Shown here: piece after piece, positions 17,596 to 27,497 of the stretch
How the letters are laid out: the number at the start of each line of letters is the position of its first letter
Position numbering within the stretch: the stretch's first letter is position 1
Source: Chloroflexota bacterium
GTDB lineage: Bacteria; Chloroflexota; Anaerolineae; DTLA01
NCBI GenBank assembly: GCA_014874485.1
Contig: JADBJK010000031.1
Span: forward strand, 22,532-86,531
Length of the DNA: 64,000 bases
Direction of reading: 5' to 3'
Position numbers and translations under genes: made by a program
Notes under the pieces: model-generated
Database searches by the model: none
Told to the model about the DNA's origin: nothing
Seen by the model: the letters and a program-made list of their open reading frames with translations, nothing else

Positions 17596-17683
17596 TTGTT
17601 CTGTTGGGCGACGTAGCCAAGTGGCAAGGCAGGGGTCTGCAAAACCCCGACCGCGGGTTCAAGTCCCGCCGTCGCCTCCACAA
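17596..17683. repeat. Left 88-bp direct repeat (candidate attL)
   Basis: Identical base-for-base to 21863..21950; flanks differ immediately outside. Confidence 0.95.
17607..17680 (+). tRNA. tRNA-Cys (GCA), first copy, CCA encoded
   Basis: GGCGACG/CGTCGCC; GGGGT-CTGCAAA-ACCCC; TCCA 3' end. Confidence 0.95.
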
Positions 17684-17750: not shown

Positions 17751-17785
17751 CCTGATGGTGCTGACGGCATCATTACACCATCAGG
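17751..17785. promoter_or_regulatory. 10-bp perfect inverted repeat upstream of integrase
   Basis: CCTGATGGTG (17751-17760) / CACCATCAGG (17776-17785), 15-bp spacer, 9 bp before integrase ATG. Confidence 0.65.
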
Positions 17786-17794
17786 AGGTGCACC

Positions 17795-18907
17795 ATGACC
17801 CGCCGAAACCCAGGCGAAGGAAGCGTCTTTCAGCGCCGCGATGGGCGCTGGCAGGCCTCGCTCCAACTGAACGGCATCCGCAAAGTTGTTTACGGCAAGA
17901 CGGCCCAGGAAGCCCGCCAGAAGTTGGCCGCCTTGCGAAAGCAGGTGGCCACGCTGAACGGCCTACCCGACGCGGGACGGCGAACGGTAAATGACCTGCT
18001 GGACGCCTGGCTTGAGGTTTGCGCCCCGTCCTGGAGACCGTCCACGCTGGAGAGCCACCGCGAAGTGGCCGACCTGCACATTCGCCCCACGCTGGGCAAG
18101 GTGCGCCTGGAGCGGCTTTCGCCCGTCCAGGTGCAAGGCCTCACCAAGACCCTACAGAAAGCCGGGAAGCCGCGAACGGCGCTGAAGGCCTACGCCGTCC
18201 TGCACCGCGCCTGCCAGTTGGCCGTCCTGTGGGGCTGGCTTCCGCAAAACCCGTGCGGTAGGATACCGCGCCCCCAGTACCGCCCCGAAGGTAGGCAGGT
18301 TTGGACAACCGCCCAACTCCAAGCGTTCCTGCAAGAGACGCGGGGCCACTGGCTTGGCCCGCTGTGGGCGTTCCTTGCGGCTTCGGGCTGTCGCATCGGC
18401 GAAGCGCTTGGGCTGTCCTGGGACGCCGTCAACTGGGAGACCGCCACCGTTGCCATCGCCCACAACCTGCAGAGAGTGGGGGGCCGCTGGGAGTTGGAGC
18501 GGCCCAAGACCGCATCGGGCGAACGCACCATTGCCCTGCCTGACTGGGGCATCGCCGCGCTGAAGCGGCAACGGGTACAGCAAGCCGAATGGCGTTTGCA
18601 AGCCGGGGCATCCTGGGCAAACGAGCGGGGCCTCGTGTTCACCAGGGCGAACGGTGCGCCGCTCCACTGCACAACGGTTGCCAGGGCCATGCGGGAAGTG
18701 TGCAAGCGCCTGGAGTTGCCGCCGCTATCGCCTCACGGGCTGCGACATCTCCACGCAAGCCTGCTACTGGCAGAGGGCGTGGGAGTCCCGCAAGTGGCCC
18801 AACGGCTTGGCCACGCCGACCCGCGCATCACGCTGCAGGTGTACGGCCACGCCCTGGGCGGTGATGACGCGGCTACAAAGGCGCTAGGGCGGGCGATTCG
18901 GGGGTAG
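17795..18907 (+). CDS. int: Tyrosine recombinase / phage-type integrase
   Basis: Catalytic motifs GCRIGEALGL, HGLRHLHASLLL, HADPRITLQVYGH; N-terminal SAM-like core-binding domain. Confidence 0.95.
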   Translation: MTRRNPGEGSVFQRRDGRWQASLQLNGIRKVVYGKTAQEARQKLAALRKQVATLNGLPDAGRRTVNDLLDAWLEVCAPSWRPSTLESHREVADLHIRPTLGKVRLERLSPVQVQGLTKTLQKAGKPRTALKAYAVLHRACQLAVLWGWLPQNPCGRIPRPQYRPEGRQVWTTAQLQAFLQETRGHWLGPLWAFLAASGCRIGEALGLSWDAVNWETATVAIAHNLQRVGGRWELERPKTASGERTIALPDWGIAALKRQRVQQAEWRLQAGASWANERGLVFTRANGAPLHCTTVARAMREVCKRLELPPLSPHGLRHLHASLLLAEGVGVPQVAQRLGHADPRITLQVYGHALGGDDAATKALGRAIRG

Positions 18908-19006: not shown

Positions 19007-19035
19007 TTGCCAAGCGCCGCGCCCTGTGGTACAAT
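19007..19035 (+). promoter_or_regulatory. Promoter of putative RNA copy A
   Basis: TTGCCA (19007-19012) - 17 bp - TACAAT (19030-19035), extended -10 TG. Confidence 0.6.
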
Positions 19036-19041
19036 TGCCGC

Positions 19042-19159
19042 AAAGAAAGCGCCCTGCGACGCGCGAACGTCCAGGGCGGCGGCTAGGGCGGGCCTATCGC
19101 CCCAGCGAGTGGATTGTAGCACAATGGCCCGTCCTGGCAAACGCTGGGGCGGGCTTTTT
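19042..19159 (+). ncRNA. Putative structured ncRNA, copy A (ends in intrinsic terminator)
   Basis: HP1 CGCCCTG-c-GACG-CGCGAA-CGTC-CAGGGCG (19050-19078); HP2 GCT-a-GGGCG...CGCCC-c-AGC (19082-19106); TAGCACAA (19117-19124); terminator stem 19127-19154 + TTTTT; same architecture as 21583..21706. Confidence 0.6.
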
Positions 19160-19174
19160 GCTGCGAGGCGGAGT

Positions 19175-19825
19175 ATGGACACGTGGAAAGAAACCCATAT
19201 CGTGGAAGGCAAACTTGAAGACCTTGCCCGGTATCTCTTGCGGAAGACGCGCCCCTACTGGCACGTTGACCTGGGCGAGGGCAAAAGCCTGCAGGTTCAG
19301 TGTGCGCGCCCGCGGCTGAACGCGCTGCCCGACCCCGATGATGCCATTTTGGAGATGGAAGCCTTCTTGCTGAAGCCAGACCCCGACAATCCCAACGCCG
19401 CCGTCGCATGGCCGGTAGGGAGCGCCGTGGAGTTTCGCCTGCTGCGAATCACAGACAACCGCACCGAGGTTACCGTGCAATGCCACTACCCGCAATTGAC
19501 CGACCGCGTGCAAGCCTTAATCGCTGCGGTTCTGGAGACGTGGCCCCATCCCGTGCAGAGCGCGGCGCAAAGAGTTGACGCGCCCCGGCCCGAGACCTCG
19601 GAGCCTGCGGTGCATAAGGGCGAAGAGGCAGACTGCCTCGCCGCTATCCGAGAAGGGCCTGATAGAGACATAATCAGATTATGGCGCGAAGGCTATACCG
19701 CCTCTGAAATCGCAGAGCAGAGCGGCTTCGCCAGCAAGACGGTGAGCAACCGCATTTGCGAGTTGCGAAAGACGTTTGGGGATGGCGTGGTGCCACGCCG
19801 CAGGCCTCACAGATGGAAAAACTGA
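19175..19825 (+). CDS. Element-encoded hypothetical with C-terminal helix-turn-helix
   Basis: C-terminal IIRLWREGYTASEIAEQSGFASKTVSNRICELRKTFG is a typical HTH; SD GAGGCGG. Confidence 0.7.
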   Translation: MDTWKETHIVEGKLEDLARYLLRKTRPYWHVDLGEGKSLQVQCARPRLNALPDPDDAILEMEAFLLKPDPDNPNAAVAWPVGSAVEFRLLRITDNRTEVTVQCHYPQLTDRVQALIAAVLETWPHPVQSAAQRVDAPRPETSEPAVHKGEEADCLAAIREGPDRDIIRLWREGYTASEIAEQSGFASKTVSNRICELRKTFGDGVVPRRRPHRWKN

Positions 19826-19910
19826 TGGAATCCGGGTATTGATTCCCTGGAATAGGCAGGGCTAGACTGGCGGGTGAAAGAACCCGCCAGTTTCTTTTGG
19901 GAGGACAGAC

Positions 19911-20072
19911 ATGCAAAGCCCAATCAGGTTTCGGCTTCTGTTGTCCGAGGAAGAGTACCACGCCCTGGTGCGCCTGTCGGAGCGGGAACTGCGACCGCTG
20001 ATGCACCAGGTGCGAGCCATACTGCGAGCGGAACTCCAGCGGGAGGGGCTTCTGGAGCCGACGCAGGAGTAA
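19911..20072 (+). CDS. 53-aa ribbon-helix-helix-like small protein (absent from supplied ORF track)
   Basis: MQSPIRFRLLLSEEEYHALVRLSERELRPLMHQVRAILRAELQREGLLEPTQE; upstream purine-rich SD GGGAGGA. Confidence 0.6.
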   Translation: MQSPIRFRLLLSEEEYHALVRLSERELRPLMHQVRAILRAELQREGLLEPTQE

Positions 20073-20125
20073 GAACTTGCCCCCGACGCTGGCACGCCGG
20101 GGGCGGGACAAAAGGGGGTTGTGTT

Positions 20126-20491
20126 ATGCATGGTACCAACGAGCGGGAGCGCTGTCAAATCTACGCCCAGGGGCGGGTTGTGGGCCACGTCCAGGGCGAC
20201 GTTTTCGTGAAGCGTGTCCGTGGGAGCGTCCACATGCTACGGAAACCCAGGGCCTGGGCGCTGGACTGCCAAAGCCTTGACGATGCCGAGGCCCTCGGAG
20301 CGCGGCAAGTGGAAGTCCACGACACGGAGTCGGGGCTGACCTATCGGGCCTCGGTTGCCCTGATTCGCGCGCGGGGCTTTCAGTTTGACCGCGGCTTCGG
20401 GCGGCAAATCGCCTTGCCGCTTGACCAGTGGAACATGGAGCGGCCAGGTGCGCCGAAGGCTGTGCAGTTGGGCCTTGCCCTGGGAGTGTGA
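20126..20491 (+). CDS. Element-encoded hypothetical protein
   Basis: MHGTNERERCQIYAQGRVVGHVQGDVFVKRVRGSVHMLRKPRAWALDCQ...; SD AGGGGG; overlaps into next gene region. Confidence 0.6.
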   Translation: MHGTNERERCQIYAQGRVVGHVQGDVFVKRVRGSVHMLRKPRAWALDCQSLDDAEALGARQVEVHDTESGLTYRASVALIRARGFQFDRGFGRQIALPLDQWNMERPGAPKAVQLGLALGV

Positions 20492-20495
20492 GGCG

Positions 20496-21173
20496 GTGGG
20501 CGGCGGCAACGGCGCAGGGTGGGTGCGAGTCCCCAAATCGGCGGCCTTTGACAAGCGGCTGTCGTGTACCGAGCGCCTTGTCCTAGTGGCGCTGCTGTCC
20601 TTTGACTTCTCCGACGCGCGGGGCAAGTCCAAAGGCTACTGCTGGCCGTCGGTTGGCACGCTGGCCGAACTTGTCGGACGTTCGCGTCGCACCATTCAGG
20701 CGGCGCTTGCCAGGCTTGAGGCCGTCGGCTACATCCGCGTTGAGCACAACGTCGGAGGCCCAGGTGGGGGAAGTAGCAATCGGTACCACCTTGTGCTGGA
20801 GAGCGACGTGCAGAAAACTGCACCTCGCTATGCGAGCGACGCGCAATTTTCTGCGAGCGACGTGCAGAAAATTGCACCCCCCGACACGCAGAAAATTGCA
20901 CCCGAAGAAGAAGAAGATAGAAGAAGCACAACCGAAGAAGAAGAAACTTACGACCCTCGCATTCGTGATTTTATGGACATCTTGAAAGCGACGGTTGCTC
21001 CGTCCACGTTTGGAGCCTACCTTGCGGATATGAGGGTGTCGGCCTCGGACGGGCTTTTGGTGGTAGCCGAAGCGCATGGCATGGCCGCCACGCGGTTGCG
21101 GCCAAAGGTAGAAAGCGCGGCGAAGCAGGCTGGTTTCGCCGCTGTGGTGTTCGCTGAACAGGCGGCGGGGTAG
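20496..21173 (+). CDS. Replication-initiator-like protein: N-terminal winged HTH, repeat linker, DnaA domain-I-like C-terminus (GTG start inferred)
   Basis: STLAELVGRSRRTIQAALARLEAVGYIRVE wHTH; SDVQKTAP/SDVQKIAP/DTQKIAP linker; C-term ILKATVAPSTFGAYLADMRVSASDGLLVVAEAHGMAATRLRPKVESA. Confidence 0.65.
   Translation: MGGGNGAGWVRVPKSAAFDKRLSCTERLVLVALLSFDFSDARGKSKGYCWPSVGTLAELVGRSRRTIQAALARLEAVGYIRVEHNVGGPGGGSSNRYHLVLESDVQKTAPRYASDAQFSASDVQKIAPPDTQKIAPEEEEDRRSTTEEEETYDPRIRDFMDILKATVAPSTFGAYLADMRVSASDGLLVVAEAHGMAATRLRPKVESAAKQAGFAAVVFAEQAAG
20801..20902. repeat. Four iteron-like repeats (core GCAGAAAAyTGC; second copy inverted) inside the initiator-like gene
   Basis: Cores at 20810-20821, 20843-20854 (reverse), 20864-20875, 20888-20899; followed by purine-rich tract from 20904. 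Confidence 0.75.
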
Positions 21174-21510
21174 AGTTGCGGCCTGTGCGCGCGGGACGGG
21201 AAGGGGACATCCCAGGACGCGGGAAGCCGCCATCCCGGCACCCCGCGCGGGGTAGGGGGGCATCATGCGAGACGAGATGCTGATTTGTAGCCCACAGGGG
21301 GGTTGTGTGTGGCAGTCTTGCGGGCGGGCAAGCCTTCAGTTGGGCCAAAAGCCCAGGCGGGAGACGGCGAAGGGCCGCCCATCTAAACGGCTGAAAAATG
21401 GCCCCTGTGCAACTTCCGACTAGGCGCATTATGTAAATACGTCAAGCCTTGCCGCGTCCTCATGCGCCCGAATGCGGGCGAGTAAGGCCATTGCCCCTAA
21501 ATGCCCCAGA

Positions 21511-21540
21511 GTGGCCAAAAATGGCCAAAAGCGGCCAAGA
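21511..21540. repeat. Three 10-bp phased repeats (g/a)(t/c)GGCCAAAA
   Basis: GTGGCCAAAA ATGGCCAAAA GCGGCCAAGA contiguous. Confidence 0.8.
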
Positions 21541-21582
21541 ACGACCTAACACTTTCGGGCCGACCTGTGCTATACTGTAGGC

Positions 21583-21706
21583 AAGCGAAAGCCCCCGCAA
21601 GGCCGCAACCTTCGGGGGCGTGGCCCGGATGGGGTAGCATCCGAGCGGGGATAGGATAGCACAACGCCCTGCCTGGTGCAAACGACCGGGCGGGGCTTCT
21701 GTTTTT
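21583..21706 (+). ncRNA. Putative structured ncRNA, copy B (ends in intrinsic terminator)
   Basis: -10 TATACT 21571-21576 with TG extension; HP1 GCCCCCG-c-AAGG-CCGCAA-CCTT-CGGGGGC (21591-21619); HP2 GC-c-CGGATG-gggtag-CATCCG-a-GC (21623-21646); TAGCACAA (21657-21664); 12-bp terminator stem with GCAAACG loop + T tract. Confidence 0.6.
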
Positions 21707-21862
21707 GACAGCATCAGTACACCATCATCAGAGCGAAGGGGTATAGGCGCATGGGGGCCTGCAGGGGCGTTTACGGGCATTTAGAGGCGCTGCTGGGCGT
21801 TGACGGGCGTGAAGTAGCCCAGGGCCGCAAGGAAGCGCATCTTGTCCCGTTCCCTCTTTCGC

Positions 21863-21950
21863 TTGTTCTGTTGGGCGACGTAGCCAAGTGGCAAGGCAGG
21901 GGTCTGCAAAACCCCGACCGCGGGTTCAAGTCCCGCCGTCGCCTCCACAA
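21863..21950. repeat. Right 88-bp direct repeat (candidate attR)
   Basis: Identical to 17596..17683, offset 4267 bp. Confidence 0.95.
21874..21947 (+). tRNA. tRNA-Cys (GCA), second full copy
   Basis: Identical to 17607..17680. Confidence 0.93.
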
Positions 21951-22074: not shown

Positions 22075-22542
22075 ATGAGCGAGATGCCGAAACCCGGCCA
22101 GGCCGCGCCTGACTTTGAACTGCCGTCGGACCGCGGCGACAAGGTCCGCCTGTCCAACTTCCGAGGCAAGAAAGTCGTCCTGTACTTCTACCCCAAGGAC
22201 ATGACTTCGGGCTGCACCAAAGAAGCCTGCTCGTTCCGCGACAACTATCCCCAGTACGAGGAACAAGGCGCCGTCATCCTGGGCGTCAGCCCGGACCCGC
22301 CCCAAAGCCACGTGCGCTTCAAGAGCAAGTACAATCTCCCCTTCCTGCTCCTATCCGACGAGGATCACAAGGTCGCCGAACAGTACGGCGTCTGGGGCGA
22401 GAAGCAGATGTACGGCCGCGCCTACCAGGGCATCCTGCGCACCACCTTCGTCATTGACGAAGAAGGCGGAATCGCCAAGGTCTTCACCAAGGTTAAACCC
22501 GACGGCCACGGCGAGGAAGTGTTGGGGGCACTGGCCGAATAG
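22075..22542 (+). CDS. bcp: Thioredoxin-dependent peroxiredoxin (BCP-type)
   Basis: PGQAAPDFELPSDRGD...YFYPKDMTSGCTKEACSFRD. Confidence 0.95.
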   Translation: MSEMPKPGQAAPDFELPSDRGDKVRLSNFRGKKVVLYFYPKDMTSGCTKEACSFRDNYPQYEEQGAVILGVSPDPPQSHVRFKSKYNLPFLLLSDEDHKVAEQYGVWGEKQMYGRAYQGILRTTFVIDEEGGIAKVFTKVKPDGHGEEVLGALAE

Positions 22543-26977: not shown

Positions 26978-27019
26978 CAGATGGCATTGCGAGCGAGGGG
27001 AAGCCACCCAGGCCCCATC

Positions 27020-27343
27020 TGTCATTGCGAGCGAAGGGAAGCAATCCCGGCCCCCATCTGTCATGCTGAGCGTAGCGAAGCATCTCGGCTGACGAGATTC
27101 TTCGGCGCTCCGCGCCTCAGAATGACAGTTCGCGGGGATTGCTTCGGGCACTCCGCGCCCTCGCAATGACAAGCCCCCACCTGTCATTGCGAGCGAAGCG
27201 AAGCAATCCCGGCCCCCATCTGTCATGCTGAGCGTAGCGAAGCATCTCGGCTGACGAGATTCTTCGGCGCTCCGCGCCTCAGAATGACAGTTCGCGGGGA
27301 TTGCTTCGGGCACTCCGCGCCCTCGCAATGACAAGCCCCCACC
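27020..27343. repeat. Tandem duplication of a 162-bp unit made of palindromic dispersed repeats
   Basis: Units 27020-27181 and 27182-27343 differ at one base (gaaGGGaag vs gaaGCGaag); third partial unit starts 27344. Confidence 0.9.
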
Positions 27344-27497
27344 TGTCATTGCGAGCGAAGCGAAGCCACCCAGGCCCACGTGCGGCGCACCTCGGAGGTG
27401 CGTCGCACGTGCACGTCATTGTGAGCGAGACGTGCGTCCAGGAATCACCGCAGCGAAGCGCCAGGCCGCGCGGCAGGCCCGAAGCCACGCAGCCTGC

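Follow-up and report, generated by a model that had tools for sequence, protein, structure and literature searches.

A candidate antisense attenuator in two diverged copies within a small integrative element of a Chloroflexota bacterium

Two diverged copies of a structured sequence of about 120 nt lie in a 4.27-kb integrative element of a Chloroflexota bacterium (GenBank assembly GCA_014874485.1, contig JADBJK010000031.1), and the question that this locus raises is on which strand such a unit is read and what it does for the genes beside it. The window, meaning the whole 64,000-nt stretch that was analysed, covers positions 22,532 to 86,531 of the contig, and coordinates below are counted from its first base. 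An earlier note, made from the sequence alone, had described the copies as one sense RNA and had guessed at a role in copy control, immunity or regulation of the integrase. The observation itself was confirmed and its interpretation was partly supported, the guessed roles being right as possible involvements. From the comparative data we think it probable that the copies are a control region in which an antisense RNA faces an attenuated leader and gates read-through into the gene behind.

Both copies have the same orientation and were found where the earlier note had placed them; counted from the -10 element through the end of the T-run they extend from 19030 to 19159 (copy 1) and from 21571 to 21705 (copy 2). 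Alignment of the two gave standard pairs at 30 of the 31 proposed pairs in each copy, with two-sided changes at five pairs of hairpin 1, two of hairpin 2 and two of the terminator. The fold of each copy beats dinucleotide shuffles (z about -2.9), and the two copies share the strings TAGCACAA and GCAAACG without any change.

To search for relatives, a covariance model was made with these two copies as its only members. In the window's own genome it found just the two known copies, and DNA similarity alone likewise revealed no further ones there, while across the class it matched 54 of 299 genomes in 47 of 185 genera, the best other match having an E value of 8.7e-18. A refined model of 61 sequences matched 53 of 399 genomes of the phylum Chloroflexota at E values up to 1e-3, and scored no more than 18.4 bits in a negative control of 100 viral-contig loci (870 kb). 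Among 116 aligned copies all 31 pairs covary, with two-sided changes in 911 cells compared to 240 in shuffles. The covariation score is 0.632; shuffling lowers it to 0.166, and sliding the partners to 0.097 or less. Comparison with the Rfam covariance models identified no family at the copies, its near-matches being irrelevant, and the searches made of the open-licence literature gave no description; the family is large and apparently undescribed. The genome searches covered Chloroflexota, and the family may well extend beyond the phylum. A pattern scan of viral contigs for TAGCACAA together with GCAAACG gave matches that, among those listed, look like chance; 100 of these loci made up the negative control above.

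The strand on which each hairpin is selected was read from its wobble pairs. A helix selected as RNA tolerates G.U on the transcribed strand, and such pairs are read as A.C on the opposite strand. In the + orientation of the 116 copies, A.C and G.U occupy 44 and 11 cells in hairpin 1, 133 and 11 in hairpin 2 (177 versus 22 combined), and 27 and 152 in the terminator hairpin. Per-sequence sign tests gave p values of 9e-6, 1e-21 and 9e-15 for hairpin 1, hairpin 2 and the terminator, respectively, which serve as guides only since the sequences are related. The 41 copies that the later phylum search contributed show this bias too, and the covariance models, being built on the + strand, if anything favour G.U there. 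The A.C excess in hairpins 1 and 2 and the G.U excess in the terminator indicate that the first two are selected as RNA of the - strand and only the terminator hairpin as RNA of the + strand, contrary to the single sense RNA first proposed. The a.c and c.a mismatches that had been noted at one place in hairpin 2 are indeed present, but in neighbouring pairs rather than the same pair, and they read as G.U pairs on the - strand.

Promoters are predicted on both strands. The two strings shared by the window copies had been taken for RNA motifs; their fixed position indicates instead that the conserved box and the terminator loop are the -10 and -35 elements of an antisense promoter. In copy 1, ATTGTAGCACAA is the reverse complement of the extended -10 TTGTGCTACAAT, and within the terminator loop a -35 is read on the - strand, as TTGCCA here and as TTGACA in several other copies. 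The antisense -10 begins 12-13 nt from hairpin 2 in 59 of 61 copies, with a spacer of 17 in 45 of the 61 and of 16-18 in all, the scan having permitted only 16-18. Antisense promoters score 14.8 compared to 8.9 (standard deviation 1.55) for random windows of the same loci, a result repeated on a larger set. The sense extended -10 promoter described earlier is also kept in the family: sense promoters score 14.1 compared to 9.7 (standard deviation 1.4), and 81% exceed the control 95th percentile, at a less fixed distance and with lower scores in the distant set. The antisense RNA is predicted to begin close to the first base of hairpin 2' and to be terminated by hairpin 1' and the U-rich tract behind it, which gives a predicted length of about 65 nt and places its 3' end where the sense leader begins.

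For the sense leader a second fold is predicted, one that the earlier note missed, in which hairpin 2 pairs with the 5' arm of the terminator. When hairpin 2 was matched to its own terminator 5' arm rather than to permuted partners, complementarity was strongly favoured (z=-9.9 in 75 copies, z=-12.1 in 116). The same comparison with hairpin 1 gave z=-0.9 and z=0.04, and because this control is null, base composition is an unlikely cause of the hairpin 2 signal. Only the z values of the 116-copy test were used, as copies lacking a terminator add a constant offset to its energies. The antiterminator takes one of two registers, formed by the 3' side of hairpin 2 and the linker in some copies and by the 5' side of hairpin 2 and its loop in others. 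In the nascent leader, before the terminator 3' arm is made, its predicted probability exceeds 0.5 in 70 of 95 copies and is 0.998 and 0.80 in the window copies. In the full leader the mean terminator probability is 0.70, and it rises to 0.85 with hairpins 1 and 2 blocked.

The loops are highly diverse, with 104 distinct loops of hairpin 1 and 109 of hairpin 2 among the 116 copies. In six of seven elements, the two copies of one element resemble each other no more than random copies do, and in all seven their loops differ. The U-turn motif YUNR occurs in 34% of hairpin 1 loops, compared to 17% (sense) and 21% (antisense) after shuffling. Loop diversity and U-turns suit antisense pairs that recognise themselves; they do not suit a ligand pocket or a target common to all copies. 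As a separate observation, genome G144 has nine copies (loci L161, L162, L165 and L166), several of them in rows spaced 0.9-4 kb, and three of these copies have a common hairpin 1 loop region, TCTGCCAA; cross-regulation might occur among them.

We propose that the + strand would give a leader ending in an intrinsic terminator just ahead of the target gene, while the - strand would give a two-hairpin antisense RNA whose promoter lies within the leader's terminator region and which ends at about the leader start. During leader synthesis the hairpin 2 region would capture the terminator 5' arm, and RNA polymerase would continue into the gene; once enough antisense RNA is present, it would pair with the hairpin 1 and 2 region of the leader, starting from the variable loops, so that the terminator forms and transcription stops. 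The target gene would then be expressed in cells that the element has only just entered or in which it is scarce, and its expression would fall after establishment. Copy 1 would control the gene behind the integrase, and copy 2, with no gene behind it while integrated, would in the excised circle read through attP into the integrase. The integrated copy 2 could also silence incoming sister elements. The strand assignments, both promoters, the antiterminator complementarity, the loop diversity and the genomic positions all support such a switch.

Several observations weigh against it. About 20 divergent copies have no terminator, which rules out attenuation as their output; behind some copies no convincing gene lies nearby; and sense promoters are weaker than antisense promoters and vary more in position, 19-23% of them falling below the control 95th percentile. 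At equilibrium the full leader prefers the terminator even without antisense RNA, so the switch would have to be kinetic. We infer the production of both RNAs, the action of the antisense RNA on the leader and the biological purpose from sequence comparison. In several of the copies without terminator, a ribosome-binding site is located within hairpin 2 and the start codon directly follows the hairpin (L274, L280, L281 and L285), or the site is placed shortly past the antisense promoter (L265, L268, L269, L271 and L275); L276, L277 and L279 are further divergent copies of this kind. The gene at L281 encodes a 559-aa serine recombinase with a TTG start right after hairpin 2. A preliminary reading is that in such copies the antisense unit is the constant part and translation may be the output, and the cognate test on them was marginal (z=-1.8).

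Other explanations were weighed on the same evidence. A - strand small RNA gene, stand-alone or antisense, beside an ordinary terminator and acting by promoter collision or on a target in trans without attenuation, would suit the constancy of the antisense unit, which varies least of all the parts and persists where the terminator is lost. It has no need, however, of the cognate covariation between hairpin 2 and the terminator 5' arm on the sense strand, and the hypervariable loops argue against a common trans target; we regard it as unlikely. It is very unlikely that the unit is one sense small RNA of about 120 nt that uses TAGCACAA or the terminator loop to act in trans. A sense promoter and a terminator do frame the unit, but hairpins 1 and 2 tolerate A.C and not G.U on the + strand, and the box and the loop are explained as correctly spaced promoter elements.

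A DNA site folded as a single strand, such as a single-strand origin, a single-stranded DNA promoter or an attC-like recombination site, could also account for promoter-bearing hairpins in elements that replicate or integrate, and G.T wobble would likewise be tolerated in it. Selection of the hairpins on two different strands, and the placement of copies between genes as leaders with a ribosome-binding site behind, many of them with no integrase in the examined stretch, make this scarcely plausible. The chance of a riboswitch-like leader sensing a ligand or protein appears close to negligible: such leaders typically combine a conserved bulge with a terminator/antiterminator pair, yet unpaired conservation is nearly nil beyond the bulge and the promoter bases, the loops all differ, the folded hairpins are antisense, and the genes downstream have no common pathway. 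On the results for strand, promoters and loops we discarded four ideas: a 6S-like RNA, a riboswitch, an attC site and a single-stranded DNA origin.

An antisense-controlled attenuator has precedents in other systems. In the Staphylococcus plasmid pT181, an antisense RNA acts against the 5' part of the repC leader, an antiterminator holds the 5' part of the terminator, and the terminator lies just before the gene (PMC4878617). The same arrangement is predicted here: an antisense RNA with its own promoter and terminator lies opposite the 5' leader, an intrinsic terminator precedes the target gene in the window and in many internal copies but is lacking in the divergent copies described above, and an antiterminator in the antisense-covered region pairs with the terminator 5' arm. 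With all computable features present, the copies appear to work like a pT181-type attenuator, while being no member of a known sequence family. Unlike pT181, they form a chromosomal multi-copy family in Chloroflexota, with the antisense promoter inside the attenuator terminator and with integrases, first cargo genes and defence genes as targets. Rfam searches revealed no pT181 or pIP501 antisense match at E values up to 5 in the window stretch and up to 0.5 in 15 relatives. In pIP501 and other Inc18 plasmids, RNAIII induces premature termination in the repR leader and controls the replication initiator; the termination logic is alike, and the target genes differ. The c4 RNAs of P1 and P7 and the CI RNA of P4 confer phage or satellite immunity through a small RNA that blocks genes of the mobile element by leader termination. 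Those RNAs originate from the same transcript, unlike the RNA predicted here, which would come from an opposite promoter, and the c4 family of Rfam had no match in the window stretch or 15 relatives. Antisense control of translation in ColIb-P9 and pMU720 is a possible analogue of the copies without terminator, where the ribosome-binding site lies in or near the antisense-covered hairpin, although the cognate signal there is marginal. The EcoRI and Eco29kI restriction-modification genes have intragenic reverse promoters and antisense RNAs, which work through RNA pairing or through convergent promoters (PMC3874152); antisense transcription at such genes is shared with the present family, but no attenuator or shared family is described there. 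In Tn916, a terminator near the element end is reported to limit transcription across it (PMC11658703), unlike the terminal terminator of the present elements, which would have its own promoter, antisense RNA and antiterminator and lead into the integrase in the circle.

The positions of the copies in other genomes follow two patterns. A tRNA gene lies no more than 400 nt downstream in 28 of 112 copies, mostly at 90-190 nt, and upstream in one of 111. Wherever an integrase is present in the examined stretch, it lies on the 5' side of the terminal copy and on the same strand. Twelve elements of 4.3-8.2 kb were delimited by att repeats, and in the circle the terminal copy of each would come 123-363 nt before the integrase frame; the script sought only this arrangement, and the count indicates that it is common, not exceptionless. 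Internal copies come after the integrase and ahead of the first cargo gene, and in many of them the target start codon, with its ribosome-binding site, follows soon after the T-run. Copies with no integrase in the examined stretch precede type IIG restriction-modification genes, DUF499 and HmaC-like ATPases, BrxP- and BrxF-like proteins, and genes for ResIII, HSDR_N, D12 methylase, Schlafen AlbA_2, Fic and HNH proteins and a serine recombinase. Defence-like first genes account for roughly 11 of 46, a count from a gene choice that was not blind and without a background rate. A further copy (G537:C39) lies inside an integrase element, a relative of the integrase with 51% identity was found in a Chloroflexi metagenome-assembled genome, and the integrase of a related element had no relatives among viral contigs. 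A search of the family with gene 2, which covered three genomes, gave no match. In two related genomes a T-box leader (Rfam RF00230) is located directly past a tRNA-Arg att site, at L141:1025-1277 (-) and L136:2099-2389 (+).

To our knowledge, antisense attenuation comes from a handful of plasmids and phages; here its logic would belong to a large, diverse, phylum-wide family attached to integrases and to several kinds of phage-defence operon. We suggest tentatively, and with somewhat less than even confidence, that one portable antisense module with a terminator or ribosome-binding site as output serves the mobile elements and defence operons of Chloroflexota as their common dosage switch, driving the integrase only in the circle, letting cargo and defence genes be on when they enter a new host and damped after establishment, and giving each copy a private loop code. 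The family offers a directly testable explanation of how defence genes and small integrative elements can be kept quiet and yet be expressed when they arrive. More than a hundred natural sense/antisense pairs with different loops would be useful as mutually independent RNA switches, and a promoter hidden in a terminator, placing two transcripts on one conserved DNA stretch, is a trap for single-strand motif finders.

The element that carries both window copies has a tRNA direct repeat at each end and a tyrosine integrase beside one of them, in agreement with the small integrative element proposed earlier (Table 1). Copy 1 is placed 3' of the integrase and copy 2 just before attR, and the cargo also includes two small open reading frames. 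The 22-nt repeats TGACRGCATCAKTACACCATCA just inside each att site are likely integrase arm sites.

Table 1. Features of the integrative element and its two attenuator copies (window coordinates).
Feature	Coordinates	Strand	Basis or remark
attL	17600..17683	+	perfect 84-bp direct repeat with tRNA-Cys(gca); repeat comparison and ARAGORN
22-nt repeat near attL, candidate integrase arm site	17762..17783	+	91% identical to 21706-21727
Tyrosine integrase	17795..18907	+	PF00589, E 1.4e-20; candidate target of copy 2 leader in excised circle (circle distance)
Copy 1 sense promoter of the TG extended -10 type, TTGCCA-17-TACAAT; predicted start ~19042	19007..19035	+	sequence; kept in family
Copy 1 predicted sense leader, ends in intrinsic terminator	19042..19159	+	anatomy
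Copy 1 predicted antisense RNA, ~65 nt (hairpin 2', linker, hairpin 1', U-rich tail); start ~19106	19043..19106	-	wobble strand bias, promoter position
Copy 1 hairpin 1, putative intrinsic terminator of antisense RNA	19050..19078	-	alignment, covariation, wobble bias
Copy 1 hairpin 2; same bases on + strand form putative antiterminator	19082..19106	-	covariation, wobble bias, complementarity
Copy 1 putative antisense promoter	19113..19140	-	-10 TACAAT 19113-19118 within the conserved box; -35 TTGCCA 19135-19140 in terminator loop
Copy 1 attenuator terminator hairpin and T-run	19126..19159	+	G.U excess on + strand, alignment
216-aa protein, weak C-terminal helix-turn-helix match	19175..19825	+	putative target of copy 1; start codon 16 nt past T-run
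HTH_36 winged-helix protein, putative replication-initiator-like role	20496..21173	+	PF13730, E 1.3e-12
Copy 2 sense extended -10, TGCTATACT	21571..21576	+	sequence
Copy 2 predicted sense leader, ends in intrinsic terminator	21583..21705	+	anatomy
Copy 2 predicted antisense RNA, ~65 nt (hairpin 2' 21623-21646, hairpin 1' 21591-21619)	21583..21646	-	wobble bias, promoter position
Copy 2 putative antisense promoter, -10 TATCCT 21653-21658, -35 TTTGCA 21677-21682	21653..21682	-	promoter scan
Copy 2 attenuator terminator hairpin and T-run	21666..21705	+	alignment, G.U excess
22-nt repeat near attR, candidate integrase arm site	21706..21727	+	91% identical to 17762-17783
attR	21867..21950	+	second copy of perfect 84-bp repeat with tRNA-Cys(gca); repeat comparison and ARAGORN

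Strings like TTGACAGCATC, which resemble the 22-nt repeat of the window, come after terminal copies in other elements. The first genes behind internal copies are tied by weak pairwise similarity (the 216-aa protein gene of the window, L193:7047-7931, L164:8963-9754, L207:13133-14194 and L183:13815-14405); the L193 protein has a sigma-70 region-4-like domain where its window counterpart has the weak helix-turn-helix match, and the first gene after an internal copy is possibly a regulator of the element. Within the winged-helix gene, three iteron-like 24-nt repeats, GAGCGACGTGCAGAAAACTGCACC, are located at 20801-20902, each with a short inverted repeat, TGCAGAAAAYTGCA. Elsewhere in the window, positions 26980-27480 hold dispersed short repeats that give CHCERREAI-like peptides in several frames, and these are probably a non-coding repeat family.

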